A DNA stretch of 64,000 nt from Rugalucina vietnamica (lineage: Eukaryota; Mollusca; Bivalvia; Lucinida; Lucinidae): contig OZ024869.1 of NCBI GenBank assembly GCA_964017185.1, positions 60,848,761 to 60,912,760 of the forward strand, read 5' to 3'. Position numbers and translations under genes: made by a program. The number at the start of each line of letters is the position of its first letter. Within the stretch, counting starts at the first letter, position 1. Below are positions 2,667 through 46,600 of this stretch, piece by piece. The notes beneath the pieces are model-generated. The model ran no database searches, was not told the DNA's origin, and saw nothing but the letters and a program-made list of their open reading frames with translations.

Positions 2667-3642
2667 ATGGCGTCGCTGGTAGGTGTGTGGTCCTATCACA
2701 CAGTACTAAAGATCGACAGAAGCAAATAAACGGATCGCTTTTAAGGTTAATTTACGAACAGACGCATTATAAAGAAGAGAATAGAAGATCTATTACTACA
2801 ATCAGTCGAATCAGTGTTATTGTCTGTTACAGACCTTGGATAGTCAGCTACATACTTTTCTCCCAGTTGGTGAACCAAAATCTGCAACCGAATCCTACAT
2901 TACTGCTGCCATAGATTTCTGTTGGTTGCTGAATCTTCAGGACCCCCCTGGCACCATAAGCTGTGACCTCCGTAAAGGTGAACCGTTCCAAACAGATAAA
3001 TACAGAGTCTACAAGCACAGCGGAAAACATGTTGACTATATCGTCTTGCCCGTTTTGTACTCACACAAAGGAGGCGTTGTGTTGTCAAAGGGTGTAGCCC
3101 AGGCCATACATGAGCCATCTGACGGGAACGAAGATGAAACGATTATAGTTACCACAGTAATGCCTGTGAATTCTGATTTGGCAGACCACCGTCCCAGGGC
3201 AGCTAAAGAGTCAAGACACTCAAATTCCACCGCAGAAGTTAAAACAAACGAATCTGGTATAAGTATTGATAATTCGGCAATGGATAAAGGTATAATATCT
3301 TCAACTAAAGCAAAGGACACAACCCTCTCCGACCCTATGTACATGGATGATATTGAAATAAAAGTAGATGCTCCAAAACACCCGCCAATAAAAACTAATT
3401 CCAAGGAAGAGGTGCATCATCCATACGAATACGTGGCTGTTTCAAGTTTGCCAGATACCCAACAACAGACTGATGCTGAAATCTTAGGAGCAAATGTTCC
3501 ATCAATTGATGAAATGTATGCAAGAGTAAATAAAATAAGGGGGGATAAGACATTCGATTTCAATACTGGTAAACATTCGACTGACGTTGAATACGAAGAA
3601 ATGGAATATGTAGCTGAAGAGGAATGTATTACCAGGTTTTAA
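2667..3642 (+). CDS. Mieap-domain protein (mitochondria-eating protein C-terminal domain) with tyrosine-rich tail
   Basis: The coding exon runs from 2,833 to TAA at 3,640-3,642. It starts just after a good acceptor (TTATTGTCTGTTACAG ending at 2,832). An upstream ATG at 2,667 in a favourable context (TTCAAGATGG) is followed after four codons by GTAGGT, a plausible donor at 2,679. Joining them keeps the frame and gives MASL, then TLDSQLHTF, about 274 residues with a 154-bp intron; this join is inferred. Residues about 20-95 carry the conserved core of the Mieap (SPATA18) C-terminal domain: FCWLLNLQDPP, the aromatic-basic stretch YRVYKHSG, then VDYIVLPVLY and GGVVLSKGVAQ. In vertebrates Mieap acts in p53-dependent mitochondrial quality control; the role here is unknown. 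Only the distal part of the domain is present, so more exons may lie upstream. The remaining 170 residues are acidic and disordered-looking with tyrosine motifs (HPYEYVAV, DEMYARVNK, EYEEMEYV) resembling receptor tails. Antisense frames over this exon are shadows. Confidence 0.72.
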
Positions 3643-3763
3643 GATCCACTGAAAGAAACTGTTCATTACTTTTTAAAGATAGTTTTAATCAAGTCATGAC
3701 GATATGATTATCGGTGGATTACACATATTACCTACTCGTAAACTGTGAATGGTATCGCCTGAA
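3643..3763. other. Probable 3' UTR of the Mieap-like gene
   Basis: A-T-rich sequence immediately after the TAA. No AATAAA lies in the first 400 bases; the nearest on the + strand is at about 4,065, inside the foldback element that follows, so the transcript may use a poly(A) signal supplied by that element. Confidence 0.35.
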
Positions 3764-12414: not shown

Positions 12415-14990
12415 TTTTAGCTCACCTGAGCCGAATGCTCACAGGCGAGCTTATAGTATACCCATGCTCCGGCGTCCGTCCGTCGTCCGTCCGTCGTCCG
12501 TCCGTCCGTCGTCCACAATTTCAAAGATCTTCTCCTCTGAAACCGCTTGGCCAATCAAAGCCAAACTTCATGTGGAGCATCCTTAGGAAGGGGGAACGAA
12601 AGTTTATATAAATGGTCAAGGTCACATGACCAAGATGGCCGCCATGGCTATAAATAGCAAAAACCTTTAAAATCTTCTTCTCCAGAACCAGTGGGCCGAT
12701 TTCCACGAAACTTGGTATGTAGTATCGGGGACGCGGGCCTATCATAGTTTATATAAATCATGACCCTAGGATGACCTTGACCTATTTTACGGGAAGGTCA
12801 ACTTAGATCGCCAGTGCATTTGAATGGGAAAAAATGGTAAAATGCTATTTAATGGGTAAAACTTACTGGGAATAGGCAAATGGACAGAAGATTAATGTTA
12901 ATGGGAAATTTTAGCCCCTGGGGGTTGTCTGCCCCTGCCCCGGGGCTATATACATGTATATGACCATAATATTCAAACATCTTCTCTGAAACCGCTAGGC
13001 CAATCAAAGCCAAACTTCACATGGAGCATCCTTGGGAAGGGGGAATGAAAGTTTATATAAATGGTCAAGGTCACATGACCAAGATGGCCGCCATGGATAT
13101 AAATAGCAAAATCATTTAAAAATCTTCTTCTTCAGAACCAGAAGGCCTATGATTTTGAAACTTAGTTTGAAGCATCTGGGAATAGAGCTCTACAAAGTTT
13201 ATATAAATCATGACCCTGGGATGACCTTGACCTATTTTACGGTAAGGTCAACTAAGGTCTCCCATGCATTGAAATGGGAAAAAATAGGAAAATGTAATCA
13301 AATGGCAGAAAACTTGCTAGAAATGAGCAAATAGTCAGAAGATTTATGTTTATGAAAATATTTTGGGCCCAGGGGGTTGTCTGCCACTGCCCCGGGGCTA
13401 TATACATGTATATGACCATAATATTGAAACATCATCTTCTCTGAAACCGCTAGGCCAATCGAAGCCAATATTTTTGTGGAACATCCTTAGGAAGAGGGAA
13501 TGAAAGTTTATATAAATGGTCAAGGTCACATGACCAAGATGGCCGCCATGGCTATAAATAGCAAAAACGTTTAAAAATCTTCTTCAGTCTTCACAACCAG
13601 ATGGCCTATGATTTTGAAACTTGGTATAAAGCATCTGGGAATGGAGCTCTACAAAGTTAATATAAATCATGACCCTGTGATGACCTTGACCTATTTTACG
13701 GCAAGGTCAACTTAGGTCTCCCATGCATTGGAATGGGAAAAAATAGGAAAATGTCATGTAATGGCAGAAAACTTGCTAGGAATGAGCAAATGGACAGAAG
13801 ATTTATGGTTATGAAAATATTTTAGGCCCAGGGGTTGGCTGCCCCTGCCCCGGAACTATATACATGTAGATGACCATGATATTCAAACAGCTTTTTCTCA
13901 GAAACTGCTTACCCAATTAAAGCCAAACTTTATGTGGAGCATCCTTAGGAAGAGGAAATGAAAGTTTATATAAATTGTCATGGTCACATGACCAAGATGG
14001 CCGCCATGGCTATAAATAGCATTTTTTTTTTAAAAATCTTCTTCTTCTTCAGAACCAGAAGGCTTATGATTTTGAAACTTGGCATGAAGCATTAAGGAAC
14101 GGAGGTCTACAAAAGGCCTAGGGAATTTAAGGCCTGATTTCGGCCTCATGTATTGGTAAAAAATTGAATTTTGGAATTTTGAGGGAAAAAGTATGGCAAA
14201 TAGCAGGTATATGTCCCTGCTTATAAAATCTAGCACAACTATCACATTCAAATTACACATGTTGCCATGGCAACGCACCGAAAAGCATAGAAATACCACT
14301 TTTTGCAATTTTGGGACTATTTTTCACTATTCAACATCATTTTCAACTACCGGCCCACGCTACGAACAATTTCTTATTATGAAATAATTATGAAGTATCA
14401 TCCAGAGATATTGTATGCTAAGTATCATTTTGTTCGTCGTGTGGGCTGGCACTTAAAAATTAAAAAATATGTTCAGAAATGGCCAAAAATAGACCAAAAG
14501 CTGCAGAATTTGCTCTATCTATGGTTCTTCTGCGCATTGCCATGGCAACGCTTGTAGTATAAATGAAGTACTTGTTCTTGTTTTAATAGAGGAGACATAT
14601 GGCTGTTTTAAGGAATAGTTTTCTCACCTAAATTCCAAAATTTAGTTTTTAACAAAATCCGAGGCCAAAATCAGGCATTAAATGGTCTAGTCCTTTGTAT
14701 AAATCATGACACTGGGATGACCTTGACATATTTCACGGCAAGGTCAACTTAGATCGCCCATGCATTTGAATGGAGAAAATTGTTAAAATGTCATTTGAAG
14801 GACAAAACTTGCAGTTAATTGGCAAATGGACTGAATTTTTATGATTTGAAAAAGACATCGACTCCAGGAGTTATTCTGACCCTGCCCTAGGGTTATATAC
14901 ATGCATTGTACCATTCTAGTCTAACAAGTTTATTGGTACATGTATATATCTCAGGTCTCAGGTGAGCGTTAACAGGACCATTGGTCCTCT
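12415..14990 (-). mobile_element. Non-autonomous AGCTCACCTGAG-family element, copy 2 (reverse orientation, interrupted)
   Basis: The ends are those of copy 1 reversed: TTTTTAGCTCACCTGAGC on the left, and on the right CTCAGGTGAGCGTTAACAGG followed by ACCATTGGTCCTCT. GTCCGTCCGTCGTCC repeats lie at 12,475-12,514. The interior is four tandem units of about 450-458 bp, recognisable by GAAACCGC near 12,539, 12,988 and 13,443 and GAAACTGC at 13,901. Each holds GGTCAAGGTCACATGACC, AAGATGGCCGCCATGG, a GATGACCTTGACC block and TATATACATGTATATGACC. The fourth unit is split by a separate TIR element at about 14,110-14,697. No coding sequence. Confidence 0.78.
14110..14697. mobile_element. MITE nested in copy 2
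   Basis: Imperfect inverted ends of about 36 bp: AAAAGGCCTAGGGAATTTAA with GGCCTGATTTCGGCCTC on the left, against the reverse complement of GAGGCCAAAATCAGGC and ATTAAATGGTCTAGTCCTTT on the right. The flanks TA-CAAA and TTTG-TA are consistent with insertion at TA, as in Tc1/mariner-derived MITEs. The interruption is visible because the neighbouring 450-bp units run through this site without it. The interior holds two copies of the palindrome GTTGCCATGGCAAC or its near relative, and no gene. Confidence 0.6.
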
Positions 14991-18180: not shown

Positions 18181-18384
18181 GATGATATTCATGCTCGACA
18201 GAATTTGAGAAACACCATCAGATCTGACCATCAGGATTTAGACAAAACTGGAGTGGATTGTTCAACAAAAATGACCACCTTTTGGAAATATAGAAACAGA
18301 ACATTTGATAAATTGACCACAAACTATGTAGCACAAACTAGGAAGCTACATTTTTGGCAAGTTGGGTACACTACTTGTGCTTAG
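18181..18384 (+). CDS. Possible terminal exon, unknown product, overlapping the recombinase gene tail
   Basis: A textbook acceptor (CTGGCATTTCTTTTGCAG ending at 18,180) is followed by 67 open codons to TAG at 18,384. The peptide starts DDIHARQNLRNTIRS and contains TTFWKYRNRTFDKLT; I do not recognise it. It runs opposite to, and overlaps by 39 bp, the end of the minus-strand recombinase frame, which would be a tail-to-tail arrangement. No upstream exon in this window joins it convincingly. Confidence 0.25.
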   Translation, partial: DDIHARQNLRNTIRSDHQDLDKTGVDCSTKMTTFWKYRNRTFDKLTTNYVAQTRKLHFWQVGYTTCA

Positions 18385-19596
18385 ATGGAAGTGAAAGTTG
18401 CATGTTCCACCACTGACATTGAAATTGAATGTTTGTGGAAGATGCAAGGGAAATGTCAATGACTGGTTGGAATTGTAAACCTGTGTGTTGCTTATTGGCT
18501 GAGAAGGGAGTATTGGCTGGTCCTCTTCATGTTCAAGATTCTGGGTGGATGGCTTAGTGGAAGGGTTAGATTTTGTTGTGATATGATTTGGGGGATTGAC
18601 CTCTGACTGTGCAGCAGAAGTTTCAACTTGAAATGCTGAGGATAGCACTTCTGAACAAAACCTCTTTTGAGCAGAAGACTGATCATCAATATAGTGCTTA
18701 AGTGTTTCCTCAGCTTTGTGTTTAGAAATTTTACATATTTGTTTTGTATCCACCCCACCGCGGTACATGACAGTTATAGCTGTGGCTCTAACAGAGTGGT
18801 TAGTGTATGTCTTAGATAAATGTGCAGACTCTGAGATTGTTTTCATGATAACATTGATTTTGTTGACACCAAGAGGCACATTATCAAACCATACTGAATC
18901 TTCAGACATGCCCCATTTCTTGTATTTTGGCTTCTGGAATAGGGCTGAACATTCAGGATGAAGCTTGCTAACATAAAACTGAAATACTTCCACAATGTTA
19001 AGACTCACACCCTCTACATTTATACCATAGGCCCTAATATCACTATAGTCCCAAGCTTTTGATGAACTCCCCCCCCTGCCAATTTTTGTTTTTTTCAGTG
19101 TGTTTCATAAAAAGGTATTGTTTTCCCTGATCATCTTTGGCTACACCAAAGGATTCCTTGGTTAATTCCCTCCACCCCTCACCTCCCCTCCTGGCAAAAT
19201 TATAACATAACAAAAACCAAAAACAATGGAGAAGGGTTTCTCGGGATGACTTGTAGCTGTTGATATATTGGGAAATTCTCCTAAGATCACCATTTTCAAT
19301 TGAGGGATGATGCTTTGGTTTGACATTAGCTTTTTGTACATAAGTTTTGCAAATGGCACCCAGCATTTTGTTTGCTTGGTTGAACTCTCTATCTGATAGA
19401 ATGTTGATATCTCTGGCCAAAGGTGGGGATGTTATGGTTCTATGTAAAGCGGCTCTAAGGCCCTTGAGTCCACTGGGAGACATCATATTTCCATCCTTGG
19501 TTTTTACTTCTGCATAGAATTTACGCAGAAGTTTTGCTAATTCTGCAGACTCGATACTATCGAGGTCAATTACGAGACCTCTCTTATTCTGCCATT
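18346..19596 (-). CDS. Crypton-type tyrosine recombinase (DUF3504) 3' exon, frame broken once
   Basis: The minus-strand exon begins after an acceptor (TTGTTTTTTATTTCAG, exon starts 19,596) and ends at the stop at 18,346-18,348. Domain order fits DUF3504 / Crypton recombinases, cut-and-paste DNA transposons that some animals have domesticated (ZMYM, QRICH1 and KCTD1 relatives). An N-terminal helical part (SPSGLKGLRAALHR) is followed by the first catalytic-arginine box NFARRGGEGWREL with EKNKNWQGG. Then come KLHPECSALFQKP, the HxxR box TNHSVRATAITVMYRGG and the distal H...Y box SKHKAEETLKHYID, whose Tyr would be the nucleophile. A 120-residue low-complexity tail follows. The frame shifts once, within a run of eight C at 19,069-19,076, so this is either a decayed copy or a homopolymer sequencing error. 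The upstream exons are missing: 200 bp further the satellite begins. Confidence 0.82.
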
Positions 19597-19672
19597 CTGA
19601 AATAAAAAACAAAGTGTGGCATAAATTATGGCAGAAACTTAACGCAAGGTGGAAAGGAGATGGGTGAAGTTA

Positions 19673-19765
19673 GCCGAAGTAGCCTGACCAGCCGAGGTAG
19701 GCTACTTCGGCTGGCCGGAGTAGCCTGACCAGCCGAGGTAGGCTACTCCGGCCAGCCGAAGTAGC
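19673..19765. repeat. 41-bp tandem hairpin repeat at the satellite boundary
   Basis: 2.3 copies of a 41-bp unit start at 19,673, 19,714 and 19,755. Each complete unit is a perfect hairpin with 12-bp arms and the loop TGACCAGCCGAGGTA. In unit 1 the arms are GCCGAAGTAGCC / GGCTACTTCGGC; in unit 2 they are GCCGGAGTAGCC / GGCTACTCCGGC, so both sides of the stem changed together. Confidence 0.85.
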
Positions 19766-28700: not shown

Positions 28701-31625
28701 TTGCGGGTGGGGTATAAGGTACCCCTGTGATTGGCGAGCACGGAGTTTAGGGAGCAAGCGACCTAGTGGGATTTACAGTAGAAGGGATGTATTTTAGACC
28801 ATATAAGCGGCTATGTCGGGAAAACTCTGGTTTTCGAGAAATAGGGGTACAAAGATGACCGAAAATGGAAATTTCTGTACAGTATTGCAATGTGTCGGTA
28901 CCAACTCGGGCTGGTTTCTCACAGAACCCCACCGAGTTTAGGGAGTTCGAGACCCAGTGGGCCTTGTAGTCCATACAAGTGCCTTTACAGCCCATAGGTC
29001 GGTTATACTGGGAAAACTCTGGTTTGTCGGAAATTTCAACTCAAACATTGGGAAACGTGAACATTCATTGGTTTGGGGATGGGGTAAGAGGCACCCCTGT
29101 CATTGACGTGCGGGGAGTTTAGGGAGCAAGCGACCTAGTGAGATTTATAGAAGAAGGAATGTACTTTCAGACCACATAAGCGGCTATGCCGGGAAAACTC
29201 TAGTTTTCTAGAAATAGGGGTAAAAAAATGACCAAAAATGGAAATTTCTGTACAGTATTGCAATGTGTCGGTACCAACTCGGGCTGGTTTCTCACAGAAC
29301 CCACCGAGTTTAGGGAGTTCGAGACCCAGTGGGGCTTGTAGTCCATAAAAGTGCCTTTACAGCCCATAGGTCGGTTATACTGGGAAAACTCTGGTTTGTC
29401 GGAAATTTCAACTCAAACATTGGGACACGTGAACATTCATGGGTTTGGGGGTGGGGTAAGAGGCACCCCTGTCATTGACGTGCGCGGAGTTTAGGGAGCA
29501 AACGACCTAGTGGGATTTAGAGTAGAAGGGACGTACTTTTAAACCACATAAGCGGCTATGCCGGGAAAACTCTAGTTTTCGAAAAAAATAGGGGTACAAG
29601 AATGACCGAAAATGGAAATTTCTGTACAGTATTGCAATGTGTCGGTACCAACTCGGGCTGGTTTCTCACAGAACCCCACCGAGTTTAGGGAGTTCGAGAC
29701 CCAGTGGGCCTTGTAGTCCATACAAGTGCCTTTACAGCCCATAGGTCGGTAATCCTGGGAAAACTCTGGTTTGTCGGAAATTTCAACTCAAACATTGGGA
29801 AACGTGAACATTCATGGTTTTGGGGGTGGGGTAAGAGGCACCCCTGTCATTGACGTGCGCGGAGTTTAGGGAGCAAGCGACCTAGTGGGATTTACAGTAG
29901 AAGGAATGTACTTTCAGACCACATAAGCGGCTATGCCGGGAAAACTCTAGTTTTCGAGAAATAGGGGTACAAAAATGACCAAAAATGGAAATTTCTGTAT
30001 AGTATTGCAATGTGTCGGTACCAACTCGGGCTGGTTTCTCACAGAACCCCACCGAGTTTAGGGAGTTCGAGACCCAGTGGGCCTTGTAGTCCATACAAGT
30101 GCCTTTACAGCCCATAGGTCGGTTATACTGGGAAAACTCTGGTTTGTCGGAAATTTCAACTCAAACATTGGGAAACGTGAACATTCATTGGTTTGGGGGT
30201 TGGGTAAGAGGCACCCCTGTCATTGACGTGCGCGGAGTTTAGGGAGCAAGCGACCTAGTGGGATTTACAGAAGAAGGGATTTACTTTCAGACCATTTAAG
30301 CGGCTATGTCGGGAAAACTCTGGTTTTCGAGAAATAGGGGTACAAAGATGACCGAAAATGGAAATTTTTGTATAGTATTGCAATGTGTCGGTACCAACTC
30401 GGGCTGGTTTCTCACAGAACCCCACCGAGTTTAGGGAGTTCGAGACCCAGTGGGGCTTGTAGTCTATATAAGTGCCTTTACAGCCCATAGGTCGGTTATA
30501 CTGGGAAAACTCTGGTTTGTCGGAAATTTCAACTCAAACATTGGGAAACGTGAACATTCATGGTTTTGGGGGTGGGGTAAGAGGCACCCCTGTCATTGAC
30601 GTGCGCGGAGTTTAGGGAGCAAGCGACCTAGTGGGATTTACAGTAGAAGGAATGTACTTTCAGACCACATAAGCGGCTATGCCGGGAAAACTCTAGTTTT
30701 CGAGAAATAGGGGTACAAAAATGACCAAAAATGGAAATTTCTGTATAGTATTGCAATGTGTCGGTACCAACTCGGGCTGGTTTCTCACAGAACCCCACCG
30801 AGTTTAGGGAGTTCGAGACCCAGTGGGCCTTGTAGTCCATACAAGTGCCTTTACAGCCCATAGGTCGGTTATACTGGGAAAACTCTGGTTTGTCGGAAAT
30901 TTCAACTCAAACATTGGGAAACGTGAACATTCATTGGTTTTGGGGTAAGGTGAGAGGCACCCCTGTCATTGACGTGAGCGGAGTTTAGGGAGCAAGCGAC
31001 CTAGTGGGATTTACAGAAGAAGGAATGTACTTTTAGACCACACAAGCGGCTATGCCGGGAAAACTCTAGTTTTCTAGAAATAGGGGTACAAAAATGACCA
31101 AAAATGGAAATTTCTGTACAGTATTGCAATGTGTCGGTACCAACTCGGGCTGGTTTCTCACAGAACCCCACCGAGTTTAGGGAGTTCGAGACCCAGTGGG
31201 GCTTGTAGTCCATACAAGTGCCTTTACAGCCCATAGGTCGGTTATACTGGGAAAACTCTGGTTTGTCGGAAATTTTAACTCAAACATTGGGAAACGTGAA
31301 CATTCATGGGTTTGGGGGTTGGGTATAAGGTACCCCTGTGATTGGCGAGCACGGAGTTTAGGGAGCAAGCGACCTAGTGGGATTTACAGTACAAGGGATG
31401 TAATTTTAGACCATACATGTATATGCGGCTATGTCGGGAAAACTCAGGTTTTCGAGAAATAGGGGTACAAATATGACCGAAAATGGAAATTTCTGTACAT
31501 TATTGCAATGTGTCGGTACCAACTCGGGCTGGTTTCTCACAGAACCCCACCGAGTTAAGGGAGTTCGAGACCCAGTGGGGCTTGTAGTCTATACAAGTGC
31601 CTTTACAGCTCATCGGTCGGTTATA
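19799..31625 (-). repeat. 373-bp satellite array A, about 32 units
   Basis: Head-to-tail units of 372-374 bp (for example ATTGACGTGCGCGG at 20,148 and ATTGACGTGCACGG at 20,521). Identity between units is mostly above 90% by eye. Landmarks in order on the + strand: GCGGAGTTTAGGGAGCAAGC, GCGGCTATGCCGGGAAAACT, GTGTCGGTACCAACTCGGGC, GAGTTCGAGACCCAGTGG, CTTGTAGTCCATACAAG, CGGTTATACTGGGAAAACTC, GTGAACATTCATGGG. Two subtypes, ACCACATAAGC with ATGCCGGG and ACCATATAAGC with ATGTCGGG, are intermixed and often alternate. The first unit is shortened by about 25 bp, as expected at an array edge. Each unit carries open frames on both strands (about 77 codons minus, 86 plus), judged non-coding. The strand given is that of the recurrent 77-codon frame. 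The array is cut at 31,625 by the 6-kb element. Confidence 0.95.
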
Positions 31626-31819
31626 GACATTTTTCACTTTTGAACGTAAATGCTGCTGGCGCTTGCGGTTACGACTTTGTGTGTGATGGGCGACGACTCG
31701 TGAGGGCATATTTGAGACGAAGGCGAGGGGCGATATGAAGAATTACCTAGTCAAAACTACCAACAGCCCACCGGAGGTGTATTAAATGAGACACGCAAAA
31801 AACGAAATTGTCCGAGACG

Positions 31820-31893
31820 CCTAGCTGAATAGTTCAGTAGGTAGAGAGTAAGACATAGAATCGAAAGGTCCTGGGTTCGAGTCCGGGTAGGAC
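31820..31893 (+). repeat. tRNA-like module in left TIR
   Basis: A-box-like TAGTTCAGTAGGTAG at 31,830 and B box GGTTCGAGTCC at 31,874, with a T-arm that can pair (CCTGG with CCGGG). The acceptor and anticodon arms are degenerate, so it is not a working tRNA. It matches the inverted module at 37,340-37,415. Confidence 0.65.
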
Positions 31894-32265
31894 AAAAATT
31901 ATTTTTCCTTTTCTTTGTTTCTTCCTTTTTTCGCACCTGTGACATTAAAGCTTAAAAAATTAAAAAGAAATAAAAAAAGGAAAAAAGAAAATAAAATTTT
32001 ATCTATTGGCAAATGCAAGAATCACAAAATGCAATGCTGCATTTAATACTAAAATCGTAAGTTTCTGGATTAAACTGTCTAGTGAGAAGGCAGACCGCAT
32101 GTATAGGTTTTTTATAGGTCTTGTTGGAAGCCGAGATATTGATCGTCATTAGAAGAACGGATCAGCGACCGATCCTAACGTCAACATTTATTTCCTGACT
32201 GGCTGGTACAGATAATGTGGATAGGATAAGCTGACCGCCTCTAATGACTAAAAATATACGCAAGC

Positions 32266-32506
32266 GTCCCCCGTGGCCGAGCAGTTCAGAGCGCTGTTTC
32301 ATAATCACTTAATCATCTCACCGTTGTGTCTGGTGTGAGTTCGAGACCCACAATGGCCACATGTGAGACAGGCCAAGTTCTGTTTGCGGGTGTGCCAGAC
32401 GGTTTTTCTCGGGGTACTCCCGTTTTCGCCCCACCTACTGTTTGGCGCTTTTCATATGAGCTGAAATAATCTTGAAAGGGACGTAAAACTGAATTTTAAC
32501 AAATAC
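32266..32506 (+). repeat. tRNA-derived SINE, nearly complete
   Basis: The head has the A box GTGGCCGAGCAGTTCAGAGC (32,273) and B box GTGTGAGTTCGAGACCC (32,334). The body contains GGTTTTTCTCGGGGTACTCC and TTTTCGCCCCACC, a central block seen in many invertebrate SINEs. The 3' end GAAAGGGACGTAAAACTG is typical of bivalve SINE tails. It lies inside the 6-kb element. Confidence 0.75.
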
Positions 32507-34014
32507 ACAAGACACCAAATCAAAAAGTATAGTCACGGTACATGTTCAGATATATGTGTATTACGTATTAGATGTAAAACTACAGTTTCACGTGCTATCT
32601 CGTGAGCGAACGATGTTTATTTTGTCGATGTCTCGTTTTGAGTCCATTCGACAGTAGGAAGAGCGATGGGGGCAATACCCTACATGTAGCTACAATATGC
32701 CTAGCCACACAACTGTTTTTGTTAATTGTAGACTTTCAACAGTATTTCTGCCATATCGAGTGCGATGGTTACGATGTAGAAAATTAATTTGGCAAGACAT
32801 AAGCTTTCGTTCTGATCCTCATTTATTCTGTGTGATAGTATGCGTGTTGTTTCACCTGGTTGAATTCAAATAAATAAATTAAAATCAAACTAACACAATT
32901 ATATTATTTTCATGAGTTTCTAAAGTGTTTCCGTAGAGGACGCATAGTGTTTCAGTCGCCCCATAGTTTACTTTTGATGTTCGCCATTTTCACATACACG
33001 TAGAAGCAATTTTGGACACTACACATTCTGTCAAAGTGCACAAATTATTCATTTGTTTCACAAATAATGGTGTATACAGTCTTCACATTGACACGTGTTT
33101 TCTTAAGATTATTGCCTCGTGTATTGTCCCTTTTAACAGAATGGACGCTGGTCTTGTTTGGAAAGAGCTAGTAATTTTGTTTTTTATGCCTGTTGTTAAA
33201 TTGCTTGTGATGTGTTGCACCGCCATGTCTCTCCCGCCTGGCGTCTATGTTATGATGGGAAATTTAATTGTATAGATACTTGGTCATTCCATTGTTACTT
33301 GATTACAGATAAGGGTCTCATTGTGCTCATTTCTGATCATAATGATGCGTTTTTATACAATTTTCGGCCCGTTCAAGATTATTTTAGTTCATATGAGACG
33401 GGTAAATCAGTAACAGGAGGAAAAGAGGAGAACCCTAAGAAAACGAACTTGCACACCCACAAGCAGAACTTGGTTTTGTGTCACCCTTGATTGTAAGACT
33501 GATCAGTTGGGCAGCTACCTAAGGCGAAGAGTTCATTGTCTTGGTGTTGGTAGTTGCCAAAGCGATATTGCTGCGCTGAAGGTTGTTTTAATCCATTTTA
33601 TCACATGTTGTGTGATGTTGCATCAATCTTTGTTGTAAGGACTTTGATTGTATCGCAAGCATATACGATGGTGCTGACACTGATAGACAATACTCGAATA
33701 CACATATTCATGTACAGTATACCACGCAGACATTTCACGTGTCCATTTACCGACCTTTTATACAAACGTACCGCCATTCAAGATTCTAATATATATACAT
33801 GTAACAGGGGAAATTTAATTGTGTTGTGTTTGGCTATTGAAATTTTGTCCTAGGGCCCATCGACAAAACAAAGATCATATCAAGCCGGATCAGTTATCAA
33901 ACCACATTGCAGCTTGAAAGACGAACGCAGTTGGTGTTAAGGGCATGCGTTCTTTTGTCCTTTTTTAACATTTAAAAGTACGATTTCTATCATGATAAAG
34001 TTTATACTGAACCT
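32507..34014. other. Interior of the 6-kb element, no recognised gene
   Basis: Open frames of 60-100 codons (for example + 33,012-33,275 and + 33,554-33,853) show no motif, and no splice-site framework links them. No transposase signature (DDE or DDD spacing, HUH, tyrosine recombinase box) was found by eye. Confidence 0.5.
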
Positions 34015-34165
34015 ATTAAGTGCAGTGGTTATTTCACGTGCCTTATAAACCAGAGATGGTAGGTTTGATCCGAGTCTGCTTGCGTCTGTCGGATGAGACT
34101 ATAAACTGAGGTCTCGTTTCCATTTGACCTTTGCTGTTGGATTAACGCTCAAATCAACAAACCGA
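34015..34165 (+). repeat. SINE fragment
   Basis: B-box-like TAGGTTTGATCCGAG at 34,060 followed by GTCGGATGAGACTATAAACT and GAGGTCTCG, a block frequent in the bodies of invertebrate tRNA-derived SINEs. The A-box side is degraded. Confidence 0.6.
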
Positions 34166-34458
34166 TTCAATTTATTATTTATTTAAATTCAGATTGAGTA
34201 AGAAGCTTATGTGCTTATATGCTTGCCCGATTCCGGACGCAAAGATGGGTCCGAATGAGTAAGGTTGAGAATGATCAAATGTTGTAGATCTGCCGTCAGC
34301 ATGTGTAATACATGTGCACTAAAACGGTACCCTATATCATGACGATATCATTACAAAACAACCTTATCAAGCAAAATACAGTGTTTTTTTTTTTTTTAAG
34401 TTGAAAAAAAACAATGAAAATTTTCAATTCAACAGTTTTGATATTTTCTTATTTGTTC

Positions 34459-34510
34459 AAAACATAGATTGTGGACACAAGATAGAACGAATACTCACAA
34501 TCTATGTTTT
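34459..34510. repeat. Perfect 15-bp-arm hairpin
   Basis: AAAACATAGATTGTG and its exact reverse complement CACAATCTATGTTTT are separated by 22 bases. It sits just upstream of the truncated AGCTCACCTGAG-family piece and may mark a small separate element. Confidence 0.75.
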
Positions 34511-35314
34511 CAGAAGCATAGACAACCTAAGTTGACCTTGTCTTATAATAGGTTAATGTAATCCCTGGGTCATATATAGACTTTGTAGATGCTTCATGCC
34601 AAGTTTCAAAATCATAGGCCTTTTGGTTCTGAAGAAGAACAATTTTAAAGGTTTTTCAATTTATAGCCATGGCGGCCATTTTGGTCAAGTTACCTTGACC
34701 ATTAATACAAACTTTCGTTCCCCTTCCATGAAGTTTGGCTTTGATCGGCCATGCGGTTGTAGAGAAGATGTTTAAATATTATAGTCATATACATGTATAT
34801 ATCCCCCCAGACAGGAGCTGACAACCACCCGGGTCTTAATGTTTTCATAAATATAAATCTGCCCATTTGTATTATCATAGCAAGTTTCCACCTATTTAAT
34901 TACATTTAACTAATTTCCCCATTTAAATGCATGGGCGACCTACATGTAAGTTGATCTTACCGTAAAATAGGTCAAGGTCATCCCAGCGAAATGATTTATA
35001 CAAACTTTGTAGTGCTTTTAATATTGTTTGATGCTTCATGCAAAGTTACAAAATCATAGGCCTTCTGGTTCTGGAGAAGAAACATTTTAACGGTTTTTGC
35101 TATTTATAGCCAAGGCGGCCATCTTGGTCATGTGACCTGGTCCATTTATGCAAATTTCGTTCCCCCTTCCTAAGAATGCTCCGCAAACAGTTTTAACTTT
35201 GATTGGCCAAGCTGTTTCAGAGAAGAAGATCATGGTAATTGTTGACAGACGACGACGGACGGACGACGGGGCATGGCCATCCTATAAGCTCACCGGGCTC
35301 ATGTGAGCTAAAAC
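34511..35314 (+). mobile_element. Truncated AGCTCACCTGAG-family element, copy 3
   Basis: The right end is ATAAGCTCACCGGGC and then CTCATGTGAGCTAAAA, preceded by GACGACGACGGACGG repeats. The interior is nearly two of the about 450-bp units (GGCGGCCATTTTGGTCA, TATACATGTATATATCC, AGGTCAAGGTCATCCC). No left end with the AGGACCAATGGTCCT palindrome is present. Confidence 0.7.
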
Positions 35315-36100
35315 TAGATATACCCCTGAATACTCAAGTTTTGCTTTATAAAAGCGTTGTTCAATGGGGTAAACATGTCACGGACATGTTATCCTGATGA
35401 GGATAACAGACCATGCTCGATATTACTTAAAATGTGTCAAAACGTTGTAAGGCGTAGAATAAAAAAAAAACTGCACATAAAATTAAAGATCAACTAAATG
35501 TTTCAAATCGTAAATCTTGCCATGTTTACATGTAAAAGGAATTCTGTGTGTTCACGAAAAACATGTGAAATGTAGCTAAACAGAACCAATGTACGTATAT
35601 ACATGCACCAGTATGTTGAAAGTCACATGGCGATAACAAATAGTTGATAGTTGTTTTCCCACCAACAGTTATCGTCATATGCAGACGGGATCTCGGTTTA
35701 TAGTGTCACCATAAAGCCATGGGCAGCTCAGAATTGAACAAGCGATCCCTAGTTATACACACGAGTGTCAAGAAATAATATTCTGCATTGGAAGCTGTTT
35801 TATTCGCGCCAAGCATTTGTAAGGCCGACTCGCGTTGAACGCGTAATGTATCTTTAATGGCAATCATGACAGTTGATGATGCGATTTTGTAAACATGTCG
35901 TGTCAAAGGCCACTTCTGGTTCATTGTTCAATTAGAATCAGACAGTTAAACGGGAAGACAACAATAATCATTGTTACCATTGCATATGATAACATTGTTT
36001 ACGATTTATATGTTTAATTGCTGTCTGGATTTCTTTATTTTTGCATTTTACCAATGCATATAGGTTTTAAGTTTTTATTTGTTTTATTTTTTTTTGTTTT
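35315..36100. other. Interior of the 6-kb element, no recognised gene
   Basis: A minus-strand frame at 35,706-35,924 has no recognisable domain. A short hairpin GTTATCC-TGATGA-GGATAAC lies near 35,389. Confidence 0.45.
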
Positions 36101-36103
36101 GTC

Positions 36104-36280
36104 CCAGTCAACATTTTTTTTTCAGTCATGTCGGGACGGAGCCAACGCTTCCTGGGTTTAACCAGTTAGTAAGGAGTTAATGTGTCTTGCTCAAGGACAC
36201 AACACGGCTGGCGCCTGTGGGGATCGAACCCAGGACCTCTCAGGAGTCAGACGCCCTACCACTACGCCACCGCGCTCCCT
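36104..36280 (-). repeat. tRNA-derived SINE, minus strand
   Basis: Read on the minus strand from 36,280: a head AGGGAGCGCGGTGGCGTAGT (A box), a B box GGTCCTGGGTTCGATCC (36,224-36,240), then a body with TGTGTCCTTGAGCAAGACAC, and an A-rich end at about 36,113. The A and B boxes are well preserved. Confidence 0.75.
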
Positions 36281-36390
36281 AATAATTTTGTACCAGTCTT
36301 ATATCAACTACATGTACGTATTTATTCTCGACATGTGATTTTACGAAGCGACTGACTGAACCACTGCGACATGAAGTCATCTACGGAACT

Positions 36391-36393
<3 letters not shown>

Positions 36394-36430
<37 letters not shown>
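36394..36430. repeat. TG dinucleotide microsatellite
   Basis: An uninterrupted (TG)n run of about 18 repeats. Confidence 0.95.
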
Positions 36431-36432
<2 letters not shown>

Positions 36433-37339
36433 CGCATAAAGAATATTGTCGTCCTGTTTTAGGGTAAGCAAGATACGTTATGGAAAAACGAACTGTATGT
36501 TTCTCAGTCTATAAACATTCATTTTCTTGAAAATGATACTGTTTTAGTTTGAAGTTTAATTATACTCGTATTTATTTGAATTCACCCAGATAAACATCAC
36601 GCATAGTTCAAGAGAATAAAGGAGGATCAGAAAGAAAGCCTTTGACTTGGAAAAAACATCCCAAAAATCGTAATTATCGCATTCAAAATGCTGAAATACT
36701 GTGGAAGGTCTACAAAACCTCAACTTATTTCTATGTCTATGCAAAATGTAGCTAGGATATCGCACATGACTTGCAGATGATTGTCTAATGGACTCAAAAC
36801 GAAACATCAACCGTATAAATAACATCAAGATTTCGAGTATCTGTTTGAAGTACATGTATAAACATGCCAAAATAAATTATGTTCTCTCACGAGACAGCAC
36901 GTGGAACTGTACATGTAGGTCTTACACCTAATAAATATACATATATCTTTACATGTACACTATACAGTGTACTGTTTGAGTTAGTGCCTACGTCCGCGGA
37001 AAACATTTTTAAGTCGTTCAGGGTGGCAATCCTTATCCTAGCCACATTATGCCTGTACAAGCCTTCAGTATATTCATATTTTTATGTCTCACAGAGAGAA
37101 ATATTGACGCGAGGATAGATCAGCTCTTATACCAAAAATACGATCGAGCTCCCAATACAAGAGAAAACATACATGTGGGCTGCCGTCCCAAACTTCAATT
37201 CCTTTACGATTTAAGAATTTAATGTAGTAGGGCATTTCATGATTCTTGCATTTGCCAAAAATATAATCAGCTGATAATATATGTTTTATTTCCAAAGCTT
37301 TTTTGTCACAAGAGAGACAAATAAAGAAAAGAAAAAAGT

Positions 37340-37415
37340 GATACGTCCGGGACTCGAACCCAGCACCTTTCGTTTTCAATTCCAAGCACGCTAGCTACTG
37401 AGCTACAGAGATAGA
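37340..37415 (-). repeat. tRNA-like module in right TIR
   Basis: On the minus strand TGTAGCTCAGTAGCTAGC (A box) and GGTGCTGGGTTCGAGTCCC (B box, 37,347-37,365). It is better preserved than the left-arm module. The homology between the two TIRs continues on both sides of the module, so it is part of the TIR and not two independent insertions. Confidence 0.65.
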
Positions 37416-37609
37416 CGTCCTACGCTGTAGCATTTATTGCATGTCTTATTTAATTCGTCTTCGTCGGGCTATTGGTAGTTTTGACTAAGTAATTCTTCAT
37501 ATCGTCCCTCGTCTTCGTCTCAAATATGCCCTCACGAGTCGTTCCCCATCACACGGAAAGTCATAACCGCAAGCGCCAGCAGCAGTTACGTTCAAAAGTG
37601 AAAAATGTC

Positions 37610-40600
37610 TTATACTGGGAAAACTCTGGTTTGTCGGAAATTTCAACTCAAACATTGGAAAACGTGAACATTCATGGTTTTGGGGGTGGGGTAAGAGGCA
37701 CCCCTGTCATTGACGTGCGCGGAGTTTAGGGAGCAAGCGACCTAGTTGGATTTACGGTAGAAGGAATGTACTTTCAGACCACATAAGCGGCTATGCCGGG
37801 AAAACTCTAGTTTTCGAGAAATAGGGGTACAAAAATGACCAAAAATGGAAATTTCTGTATAGTATTGCAATGTGTCGGTACCAACTCGGGCTGGTTTCTC
37901 ACAGAACCCCACCGAGTTTAGGGAGTTCGAGACCCAGTGGGTCTTGTAGTCCATACAAGTGCCTTTACAGCCCATATGTCGGTTATACTGGGAAATCTCT
38001 GGTTTGTCGAAAATTTCAACTCAAACATTCGGAAACGTGAACATTCATGGGTTTGGGGGTGGGGTATAAGGCACCCCTGTCTTTGACGTGCGCGGAGTTT
38101 AGGGAGCAAGCGACCTAGTAGGATTTACAGTAGAAGGGATGTATTTTCAGACCATATAAGCGGCTATGTCGGGAAAACTCTGGTTTTCGAGAAATAGGGG
38201 TACAAAGATGACCAAAAATGGAAATTTCTGTATAGTATTGCAATGTGTCGGTACCAACTCGGGCTGGTTTCTCACAGAACCCCACCGAGTTTAGGGAGTT
38301 CGAGACCCAGTGGGCCTTGTAGTCCATACAAGTGCCTTTACAGCCCATAGGTCGGTTATACTGGGAAAACTCTGGTTTGTCGGAAATTTCAGCTCAAACA
38401 TTGGGAAACGTGAACATTCATTGGTTTGGGATTGGGGTAAGAGGCACCCCTGTCATTGACGTGCGCGGAGTTTAGGGAGCAAGCGACCTAGTGGGATTTA
38501 CAGAAGAAGGAATGTACTTTCAGACCACATAAGCGGCTATGCCGGGAAAACTAGTTTTCTAGAAATAGGGGTATAAAAATGACCAAAAATGGAAATTTCT
38601 GTACAGTATTGCAATGTGTCGGTACCAACTCGGGCTGGTTTCTCACAGAACCCCACCGAGTTTAGGGAGTTCGAGACCCAGTGGGGCTTGTAGTCTATAC
38701 AAGTGCCTTTACAGCCCATAGGTCGGTTATACTGGGAAAACTCTGGTTTGTCGGAAATTTTAACTCAAACATTGGGAAATGTGAACATTCATGGTTTTGG
38801 GGGAGGGGTAAGAGGCACCCCTGTCTTTGACGTGCGCGGAGTTTAGGGAGCAAGCGACCTTGTGGGATTTACAGTAGAAGGAATGTACTTTCAGACCACA
38901 TAAGCGGCTATGCCGGTAAAACTCTAGTTTTCGAAAAAATAGGGGTACAAAAATGACCAAAAATGGAAATTTCTGTACAGTATTGCAATGTGTCGGTACC
39001 AACTCGGGCTGGTTTCTCACAGAACCCCACCGAGTTTAGGGAGTTCGAGACCCAGTGGGTCTTGTAGTCCATACAAGTGCCTTTACAGCCCATAGGTCGG
39101 TTATACTGGGAAAACTCTGGTTTGTCGAAAATTTTAACTCAAACATTGGGAAACGTGAACATTCATGGGTTTGGGGGTGGGGTATAAGGCACCCCTGTCA
39201 TTGACGTGCGCGGAGTTTAGGGAGCAAGCGACCTAGTGGGATTTACAGTAGAAGGGATGTAATTTCATACCATATAAGCGGCTATGTCGGGAAAACTCTG
39301 GTTTTCGAGAAATAGGGGTACAAAAATGACCAAAAATGGAAATTTCTGTATAGTATTGCAATGTGTCGGTACCAACTCGGGCTGGTTTCTCACAGAACCC
39401 CACCGAGTTTAGGGAGTTCGAGACCCAGTGGGTCTTGTAGTCCATACAAGTGCCTTTACAGCCCATATGTCGGTTATACTGGGAAATCTCTGGTTTGTCG
39501 AAAATTTCAACTCAAACATTCGGAAACGTGAACATTCATGGGTTTGGGGGTGGGGTATAAGGCACCCCTGTCTTTGACGTGCGCGGAGTTTAGGGAGCAA
39601 GCGACCTAGTAGGATTTACAGTAGAAGGGATGTATTTTCAGACCATATAAGCGGCTATGTCGGGAAAACTCTGGTTTTCGAGAAATAGGGGTACAAAGAT
39701 GACCAAAAATGGAAATTTCTGTATAGTATTGCAATGTGTCGGTACCAACTCGGGCTGGTTTCTCACAGAACCCCACCGAGTTTAGGGAGTTCGAGACCCA
39801 GTGGGCCTTGTAGTCCATACAAGTGCCTTTACAGCCCATAGGTCGGTTATACTGGGAAAACTCTGGTTTGTCGGAAATTTCAGCTCAAACATTGGGAAAC
39901 GTGAACATTCATTGGTTTGGGGGTGGGGTAAGAGGCACCCCTGTCATTGACGTGCGCAGAGTTTAGGGAGCAAGCGACCTAGTGGGATTTACAGAAAAAG
40001 GAATGTACCTATAGACCACATAAGCGGCTATGCCGGGAAAACTCTAGTTTTTTAGAAATAGGGGTACAAAAATGACCAAAAATGGAAATTTCTGTACAGT
40101 ATTGCAATGTGTCGGTACCAACTCGGGCTGGTTTCTCACAGAACCCCACCGAGTTTAGGGAGTTCGAGACCCAGTGGGGCTTGTAGCCTATACAAGTGCC
40201 TTTACAGCCCATAGGTCGGTTATACTGGGAAAACTCTGGTTTGTCGGAAATTTCAACTCAAACATTGGGAAACGTGAACATTTATGGTTTTGGGGGAGGG
40301 GTAAGAGGCATCACTGTCTTTGACGTGCGCGGAGTTTAGGGAGCAAGCGACCTAGTGGGATTTACAGTAGAAGGAATGTACTTTCAGACCACATCAGCGG
40401 CTATGCCGGGAAAACTCTAGTTTTCGAAAAAATAGGGGTACAAAAATGACCAAAAATGGAAATTTCTTTACAGTATTGCAATGTGTCGGTACCAACTCGG
40501 GCTGGTTTCTCACAGAACCCCACCGAGTTTAGGGAGTTCGAGACCCAGTGGGGCTTGTAGTCCATACAAGTGCCTTTACAGCCCATAGGTCGGTTATACT

Positions 40601-43600: not shown

Positions 43601-46600
43601 CGGAAATTTTAACTCAAACATTGGGAAACGTGAACATTCATGGGTTTGGGGGTGGGGTATAAGGTACCCCTGTCATTGGTGTGCACGGAGTTTAGGGAGC
43701 AAGCGACCTAGTGGGATTTAGAGTAGAAGGGATGTACTTTTAGACCATATAAGCGGCTATGTCGGGAAAACTCTAGTTTTCGAGAAATAGGGGTACAAAG
43801 ATGACCGAAAATGGAAATTTCTGTACAGTATTGCAATGTGTCGGTACCAACTCGGGCTGGTTTCTCACAGAACCCCACCGACTTTAGGGAGTTCGAGATC
43901 CAGTGGGGCTTGTAGTCCATACAAGTGCCTTTACAGCCCATAGGTCGGTTATACTGGGAAAACTCTGGTTTGTCGGAAATTTTAACTCAAACATTGGGAA
44001 ACGTGAACATTCATGGGTGTGGGGGTTGGGTATGAGGCACCCCTGTCATTGACGTGCGCGGAGTTTAGGGAGCAATTGACCTAGTGGGATTTACAGTAAA
44101 ATGGATGTACTTTTAGACCACATAATTGGCTATGCCGGGAAGACTCTAGTTTTCGAGACACAGGGGTACAAAAATGACCAAAAATGGAAATTTCTGTATA
44201 GTATTGCAATGTGTCGGTACCAACTCGGGCTGGTTTCTCACAGAACCCCACCGAGTTTAGGGAGTTCGAGACCCAGTGGGGCTTGTAGTCCATACAAGTG
44301 CCTTTACAGCCCATAGGTCGGTTATACTGGGAAAACTCTGGTTTGTCGGAAATTTTAACTCAAACATTGGGAAACGTGAACATTCATGGGTTTGGGGGTG
44401 GGGTATAAGGTACCCCTGTGATTGGCGAGCACGGAGTTTAGGGAGCAAGCGACCTAGTGGGATTTACAGAAGAAGGGATGTACTTTTACAGTATTGCAAT
44501 GTGTCGGTACCATTTGGGCTGGTTTCTCACAGAACCCCACCGAGTTTAGGGAGTTCGAGACCCAGTGGGGCTTGTAGTCTATACAAGTGCCTTTACAGCC
44601 CATAGGTCGGATATACTGGGAAAACTCTGGTTTGTTGGAAATTTCAACTCAAACATTGGTCAACGTGAACATTCATGGGTTTGGGGGTGGGGTATGAGGC
44701 ACCCCTGTCATTGACGTGCGCGGAGTTTAGGGAGCAAGCGACCTAGTGGGATTTACAGTAGAATGTATGTACGTTTAGACCACATAATTGGCTATGCCGG
44801 GAAAACTCTAGTTTACGAGAAATAGGGGTACAAAAATGACCAAAAATGGAAATTTCTGTACAGTATTGCAATGTGTCGGTACCAACTCGTGCTGGTTTCT
44901 CACAGAACCCCACCGAGTTTAGGGAGTTCGAGACCCAGTGGGGCTTGTAGTCCATACAAGTGCCTTTACAGCCCATAGGTCGGTTATACTGGGAAAACTC
45001 TGGTTTGTCGGAAATTTCAACTCAAACATTGGGAAACGTGAACATTTATGGGTTTGGGGGTGGGGTATGAGGCACCCCTGTCATTGACGTGCGCGGAGTT
45101 TAGGGAGCAAGCGACCTAGTTGGATTTACAGTAGAAGGGATGTACTTTCAGAACATGTAAGCGGCTATGTCGGGAAAACTCTGGTTTTCGATAAATAGGG
45201 GTACAAATATGACCGAAAATGGAAATTTCTGTATAGTATTGCAATGTGTCGGTACCAACTCGGGCTGGTTTCTCACAGAACCCCACAGAGTTTAGGGAGT
45301 TCGAGACCCAGTGGGGCTTGTAGTCCATACAAGTGCCTTTACAGCCCATAGGTCGGTTATACTGGGAAAACTCTGGTTTGTCGGAAATTTCAACTCAAAA
45401 CATTGGACAACGTGAACATTCATGGGTTTGGGGGTGGGGTATAAGGTACCCCTGTCATTGGCGTGCACGGACTTTAGGGAGCAAGCGACCTAGTGGGATT
45501 TACAGTAGAAGGGATGTACTTTCAGACCATATAAGCGGCTATGTCGGGAAAACTCTGGTTTTCGAGAAATAGGGGTACAAATATGACCGAAAATGGAAAT
45601 TTCTGTATAGTATTGCAATGTGTCGGTACCAACTCGGGCTGGTTTCTCACAGAACCCCACCGAGTTTAGGGAGTTCGAGACCCAGTGGGCCTTGTAGTCC
45701 ATACAAGTGCCTTTACAGCCCATAGGTCGGGAATACTGGGAAAACTCTGGTTTGTCGGAAATTACAACTCAAACATTGGAAAACGTGAACATTCATGGGT
45801 TTGGGGGTGGGGTATGAGGCACCCCTGTCATTGACGTGCGCGGAGTTTAGGGAGCAAGCGACCTAGTGGGATTTACAGTAGAATGTATGTACTTTTAGAC
45901 CACATAATTGGCTATGCCGGGAAAACTCTGGTTTTCGAGAAACAGGGGTACAAAAATGACCAAAAATGGAAATTTCTGTATAGTATTGCAATTTGTCGGT
46001 ACCAACTCGGGCTGGTTTCTCACAGAACCCCACCGACTTTAGGGAGTTCAAGACCCAGTGGGGCTTGTAGTCCATACAAGTGCCTTTACAGCCCATAGGT
46101 CGGTTATACTGGGAAAACTCTGGTTTGTCGGAAATTTTAACTCAAACATTGGGAAACGTGAACATTCATGGGTTTGGGGGTGGGGTATAAGGTACCCATT
46201 TGATTGGCGAGCACGGAGTTTAGGGAGCAAGCGACCTAATGGGATTTACAGTAGAAGGGATGTACTTTTAGACCATATAAGCGGCTATGTCGGGAAAACT
46301 CTGGTTTTCGAGAAATAGGGGTACAAAGATGACCGAAAATGGAAATTTCTGTACAGTATTGCAATGTGTCGGTACCAACTCGGGCTGGTTTCTCACAGAA
46401 CCCCACTGAGTTTAGGGAGTTCGAGACCCAGTGGGCCTTGTAGTCCATACAAGTGCCTTTACAGCCCATAGGTCGGGAATACTGGGAAAACTCTGGTTTG
46501 TCGGAAATTACAACTCAAACATTGGAAAACGTGAACATTCATGGGTTTGGGGGTGGGGTATGAGGCACCCCTGTCATTGACGTGCGCGGAGTTTAGGGAG

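Follow-up and report, generated by a model that had tools for sequence, protein, structure and literature searches.

The stretch analysed here, called the window below, is 64,000 nucleotides of the lucinid bivalve Rugalucina vietnamica (GenBank assembly GCA_964017185.1, contig OZ024869.1, positions 60,848,761 to 60,912,760 of the forward strand), and all positions are given within it. A tandem-repeat scan showed that a 373-bp satellite fills the window from 19901 to its end, apart from one insert of about 6 kb which splits a satellite unit at 31625/37610. SINE-like repeats (SINE, short interspersed nuclear element) and the satellite give the window a eukaryotic look. The insert is a real transposon insertion of a moderately unusual kind, whose inverted repeats carry tRNA-like modules. 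Its features are listed in Table 1.

Insertion into the satellite

When the insert is removed and one of two TTATA copies dropped, the flanks rebuild an ordinary satellite unit. The rejoined unit had 97.6% identity to the satellite consensus, compared with a mean of 96.7% for 100 full units (105 matches were obtained, of which 5 incomplete units were left out), and a 120-bp segment across the join aligned without gaps to other units at 96.7-97.5% among the ten matches listed, five for each side of the array. Since the joined flanks form a normal satellite unit, the element is a precise insertion into that unit. It was also considered that unrelated stretches might have been joined at the satellite by chance or through an assembly artefact. 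Satellite arrays are hard to assemble, and this one has a length jump at about 44200-44490, where a unit is apparently shortened to 289 bp, as well as an apparent inversion of orientation at about 52441. However, a random join would not be expected to produce symmetric termini together with a target present twice and a clean empty site, and an artefact of this kind is extremely improbable.

The 373-bp unit itself holds a diverged inner duplication, consisting of two stretches of about 101 bp that are 72% alike and spaced 192 bp apart, which suggests that the unit is of dimeric make-up. The B-box-like word GAGTTCGAGACCCA, present in satellite units (e.g. 31561-31574), has an exact match in the nested SINE-like stretch of the left arm, and a part of the satellite may derive from a SINE. 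No 373-bp bivalve satellite was found in the open-licence literature.

Element ends and target duplication

The mirrored termini GACATTTTTCAC...GTGAAAAATGTC lie at 31626 and 37609, with TTATA flanking both sides. Junction parses with starts at 31618-31631 and ends at 37604-37615 were compared, each being required to restore the satellite. Seven had at least one matching terminal base, and the perfect terminal inverted repeat (TIR) was 24 and 25 bp long in two of them and 1-2 bp in the other five. In one of the two the element spans 31626-37609, TTATA is duplicated and the tip reads GACATT (24-bp TIR); in the other it spans 31625-37610, TAT is duplicated and the tip reads AGACATT (25-bp TIR). 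Both parses fit the junctions equally well. Because TTATA has complementary outer bases, this site cannot separate a target-site duplication (TSD) of 5 bp from one of 3 bp, and complementary outer target bases can in this way mask the true length of a duplication. An earlier note on this DNA had described a 5-bp TTATA duplication with matching termini and had regarded the ends as fixed to the base by the satellite. The two TTATA copies and the matching termini were both seen, but 5 bp is not the sole possible length of the duplication, and the ends cannot be placed to the exact base, as two parses with a real TIR restore the satellite. The argument that leads from an odd 5-bp TSD to a new superfamily is weakened accordingly, since the 3-bp parse is equally good.

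The 3-bp parse raises the question of a known superfamily with TSDs of 3-4 bp, for instance an Academ-like one, for which TAT would be the true duplication, AGACATT the tip and the 5-bp agreement coincidental. The 3-bp parse does have the longer perfect TIR (25 against 24 bp). In AcademX TSDs of 3 or 4 bp were reported (PMC10045372), and Academ elements were found to have expanded in bivalves, with a mean length of 5565 bp (PMC10294476). However, TTATA starts with T and ends with A, which accounts for the one additional matching base, the 5-bp parse is equally good, and no Academ domain was found among 43 reading frames of the element. Academ is a candidate by its TSD, and we hold such membership to be possible though doubtful.

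A second copy of the tip was not found within the window (E up to 0.01). Exact words from the tip had no match in viral contigs and prokaryote genomes, and exact sub-tip and satellite words had none in viral contigs, collections in which the host would not be expected.

Inverted arms

The first inverted block in the BLAST alignment of the arms spans 436 columns at 73.6% identity and is followed by colinear blocks further inward. If the SINE-like stretch in the left arm is left out of the comparison, the alignment of the two arms extends for about 1.1 kb, to about 32945 and 36453, with 775 of 935 aligned positions identical and 53 gap runs. The score of this alignment (857) is far above the maximum of 61 in 40 base shuffles, and the inner part of the arms alone scored 424 against a maximum of 64 in 100 shuffles. 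The inverted repeats, previously put at about 420 bp, are therefore considerably longer.

Within the arms the outer 166 bp are the most alike, being identical at 149 of 166 positions (90%) with no gap run, whereas further in 626 of 769 positions (81%) are identical and all 53 gap runs are found. The difference in identity has a Fisher P of 0.009, and the absence of gap runs, where 9.6 were expected from the inner rate, a P of 7e-5. On the simplest reading of this pattern, the tip would be the part needed by a transposase, and likely the end that it recognises. Tip conservation fits movement: if this depends chiefly on the tip, higher identity and a lack of gaps would be expected there.

Deeper in the element a 47-bp inverted pair reached 36.5 bits, against a maximum of 29.2 in 100 controls. 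Together with its close flanks it gave a z of 4.7, the stretches on either side gave -0.3 and -2.3, and a wider comparison that took in the pair gave 0.5. The pair hints at a remnant of once longer arms. A palindrome comprising the whole element was rejected, as the stretches around the pair align no better than controls.

tRNA-like modules

Each arm carries one A-box/B-box pair at the mirror position of the other, both pairs reading inward. The A box has one mismatch and starts at arm position 205 in both arms, which bears out the earlier placement of a tRNA-like module about 195 bp from each tip. The B box, GGTTCGAGTCC, is identical in the two arms and follows the A box after 32-33 bp, and a T-run of 5 or 6 lies just downstream of it in both modules. 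The left and right modules could be aligned over 106 columns at 69.8% identity (E 2.9e-7). When an exact B box and at most one A-box mismatch were demanded, four pairs at three sites were found in the element, at 31822 and 31830 (with a common B box), at 37405 and at 36269, the last being a SINE-like head; in 200 simulated sequences the mean was 0.005 and the maximum 1 per element. Homology, an equal distance from the tip and the common downstream T-run point to common descent of the modules.

Intact tRNA genes were considered as an identity of the modules and rejected: ARAGORN at its default found no tRNA in them, the Rfam matches were below cut-off and there was no cloverleaf. At ARAGORN thresholds of 95, 85, 75, 65 and 55% the element received 0, 1, 8, 35 and 41 calls, and although one of the eight calls at 75% (37340-37435, minus strand) overlaps the right module, it was assigned no amino acid, and calls at this level are too unspecific for use. 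No Rfam family scored above its curated cut-off. The tRNA model gave 11.3 bits on the left module (cut-off 29) and was not listed for the right one, on which the mascRNA model gave 14.2 bits (cut-off 42.5); mascRNA is a tRNA-like RNA. A Phe_leader match at 31860-32003 (minus strand; 26.7 bits against a cut-off of 55) covers a T-/A-rich stretch behind the left module and was taken as chance.

It is conceivable that the modules are working RNA polymerase III (Pol III) promoters with a role in the biology of the element, producing short inward RNAs from both arms that might, for example, keep the ends open or act as regulatory RNA. If transcribed by Pol III, each module would yield a transcript of about 80-100 nt that stops at the T-run. 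The common position and direction in both arms, the exact B box and the downstream T-run speak for such promoters, as does the analogy with the tRNA-like promoters in the long terminal repeats (LTRs) of Helenus (PMC10886601). Against them, the 23-bp stretch around the B box is identical between the arms at 22 of 23 positions where the background is 81%, giving a P of only 0.055, and the A boxes are alike at 10 of 12 positions. The exact word around the B box measures 14 bp, and three exact words in the inner arms are longer (19, 16 and 16 bp). Selection on the modules is for these reasons not demonstrated. Furthermore, the predicted module RNAs have no cloverleaf and no special fold stability, their z values of -1.25 and -1.71 against shuffles being unconvincing. 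Overall we consider working promoters rather unlikely.

Table 1. Positions of the element and of the features within it (window coordinates)
Feature	Position	Strand	Remarks
Whole element	31626-37609	.	5984 bp in the 5-bp parse; 31625-37610 in the 3-bp parse
Left target-site copy TTATA	31621-31625	+	5-bp parse; TAT at 31622-31624 in the 3-bp parse
Right target-site copy TTATA	37610-37614	+	Junction parse
Left inverted arm	31626-32945	+	Includes nested SINE-like insertion
Right inverted arm	36453-37609	-	By alignment to left arm
Left tip	31626-31791	+	Outer 166 bp, gapless, 149/166 identical to right tip
Right tip	37444-37609	-	Partner of left tip
Left tRNA-like module	31830-31906	+	A box 31830-31841, B box 31874-31884, T-run 31902-31906
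Right tRNA-like module	37332-37405	-	Inward; A box 37405-37394, B box 37360-37350, T-run 37337-37332
Nested tRNA-derived SINE-like insertion	32265-32500	+	Left arm; A box 32274, B box 32338
Second copy of SINE-like tail	33361-33473	-	Inverted, 75.7% over 115 columns
Inverted pair, possible arm remnant	34094-34140	+	47 bp; partner 35662-35708
Dispersed repeat block	34525-35269	.	Mid-element (element 2900-3644); 77% to the 459-bp array at 12523-14113
tRNA-derived SINE-like head	36140-36295	-	A box 36269, B box 36230; end points approximate

Coding content

Every stop-to-stop frame of the element with 50 amino acids or more, 43 in total, was scanned with Pfam, and no family reached its cut-off in any of them. 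Weak matches (E up to 1) were obtained for eleven of the 43, each one below its cut-off and none of them a transposase domain by name; the lowest E-values belonged to NPCBM (0.0095) and Znf_SCAND3 (0.018). As no frame reaches a Pfam cut-off and none of the weak matches is a transposase by name, movement in trans is likely, and the element is probably unable to move without help.

Passenger repeats and order of events

The SINE-like insertion nested in the left arm is flanked by the imperfect repeat AAATATACGCAAG / AAATACACAAG, as read by eye, and the right arm has a gap opposite to it. An inverted second copy of its tail, a further SINE-like head and a dispersed repeat block lie between the arms (Table 1), and only short simple repeats were listed in a tandem-repeat scan within the element. 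The repeats flanking the SINE-like insertion have a decayed look, whereas the outer target copies agree at five of five bases, and from this we infer that the arms would have diverged, and the passengers entered, before the present jump, five bases being little evidence.

Outside the element, the 459-bp tandem array at 12523-14113 belongs to the same dispersed repeat family as the middle of the element.

Proposed origin of the element

Taken together, the insertion, the arms and the coding content suggest that the element is probably a non-autonomous, foldback-like cut-and-paste DNA transposon with long TIRs, which is moved in trans, and that its modules come from a captured tRNA-type sequence now carried along. 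A transposase encoded elsewhere, by a related element, would bind the tips and excise the element, which would then be pasted into a site cut with a stagger of 5 or 3 bp. The tRNA-type sequence, either a SINE head or a tRNA pseudogene, may have entered an ancestral arm by capture at a time when the arms did not yet form a mirror pair, and the modules would now be passengers. The earlier note had left a choice between promoters, captured SINEs and passengers; we favour capture of a tRNA-type sequence followed by carriage as a passenger over promoters, given that the B-box word of 14 bp is exceeded by words of the inner arms.

Several points weigh against this account. The element is a single copy whose mobility is read from its anatomy. 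The 166-bp boundary of the tip was drawn after the alignment had been seen, so that the P values given for the tip are optimistic. In 40-bp windows from the tip the identities were 39, 35, 38 and then 32 of 40, the contrast thus lying mainly in the first 120 bp; some inner windows of 40 bp reach 90-92% identity, and with other gap costs the alignment is ungapped well past 166 bp. The similarity of the tips could instead represent a recent gene-conversion tract. With regard to coding content, a frame in the left arm (32006-32161, minus strand) weakly matches a SCAND3-like zinc finger (E 0.018, with 15.4 bits where the cut-off is 27), and a transposase decayed into fragments of less than 50 amino acids could have been missed by the scan. 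The satellite unit directly before the insertion (31242-31620) is 379 bp long and, at 92.3%, the most divergent of the 100 units, which counts against a simple order of events. In addition, homogenisation of the satellite could mask an older insertion.

Comparison with known transposons

The element has the inverted termini, short target duplication and restorable empty site of class II TIR transposons. Its closest likeness in form is to foldback elements such as Tetris, which likewise combines long inverted arms with an interior of no apparent coding capacity and lacks a transposase of its own (PMC4079207). The long arms agree with the Foldback/Mutator type. However, the TSDs of Tetris measure 8-10 bp, as opposed to 5 or 3 bp here, and its arms hold tandem repeats of about 220 bp, whereas the scan of the present element listed only short simple repeats.

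Among superfamilies with 5-bp TSDs, Transib/RAG-like elements and Ginger2/TDD were considered. The 5-bp parse would suit them, as ProtoRAG, with its terminal CACTATG heptamer, has a 5-bp TSD (PMC8289069) and 5-bp TSDs are reported for TDD-4/5. Ginger2/TDD elements have TGTNR termini, TSDs of 4-5 bp, an AT-rich target and TIRs of up to 297 bp (PMC2836005), so that target composition and, in the 5-bp parse, TSD length resemble those seen here, whereas the TGTNR ends are lacking and the arms exceed 1 kb. The tip GACATT is neither CACTATG nor TGTNR, and TTATA is not GC-rich. Membership in either group is very improbable, and Transib/ProtoRAG termini were rejected for the tip AGACATT as well.

Other groups were set aside on the basis of their reported ends. 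IS3EU and GingerRoot have TA..TA termini (occasionally TG..CA in GingerRoot) and 6-bp TSDs (PMC10045372); a TA..TA parse exists here, but has no TSD and a TIR of 2 bp. The TNT..AYA termini of IS481EU are absent, and the 6-bp TSD of Polinton corresponds to none of the seven parses with a matching terminal base (PMC10045372 for both). Dada has TSDs of 6-7 bp, which do not occur here, and Dada-U6 and Dada-U1 are without TIRs (PMC3706591).

Two further systems combine tRNA- or SINE-derived sequence with mobile element ends. Helenus and TRIMp3 (311-1263 bp) contain, in direct LTRs, a tRNA-like sequence thought to stem from SINE capture (PMC10886601). They resemble the present element in that each of the two terminal repeats holds a tRNA-like module, but their repeats are direct LTRs of elements thought to be reverse-transcribed, while ours is a 6-kb element with inverted repeats, and membership was rejected for this reason. 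MER6, a miniature inverted-repeat transposable element with a captured SINE body and tail, is a precedent for SINE-derived sequence carried in a non-autonomous DNA transposon, but differs in having no tRNA head, a TA duplication and a 24-bp TIR (PMC6887750).

None of the listed titles and abstract openings of open-licence papers, a scope outside which Repbase falls, named a DNA transposon whose TIRs contain tRNA-like modules, which is weak evidence of absence. Of four sequence words searched for in open-licence papers, three occurred only in 15 papers whose titles look unrelated and the satellite word in none. The earlier note had proposed that no described superfamily unites a 5-bp TSD, this terminus and Pol III-type modules in the TIRs. 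The listings do name no DNA transposon with such modules in inverted repeats, but the step from a 5-bp TSD to a new superfamily is weak. An undescribed group of DNA transposons with 5-bp TSDs, working Pol III promoters in the TIRs and paired inward RNAs is improbable. By analogy, such a group would be the DNA-transposon counterpart of the LTR elements with tRNA promoters.

If many copies were alike, the capture of Pol III promoters that was proposed for LTR elements (PMC10886601) would extend to the ends of DNA transposons, and TFIIIC sites could spread through the genome. Otherwise, the element still illustrates how sequences of tRNA type come to be a lasting part of long inverted arms.

Other features of the window

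Two frames lie by the start of the satellite array (18349-19669, minus strand), one of which matches Phage_integrase (E 7.5e-8) and presumably has the look of a tyrosine recombinase as in Cryptons. They are adjoined by 41-bp repeats at 19672-19765. An open frame at 2785-3639 (plus strand) matches the mitochondria-eating protein (MIEAP) family (E 3e-7) and is probably a host exon.

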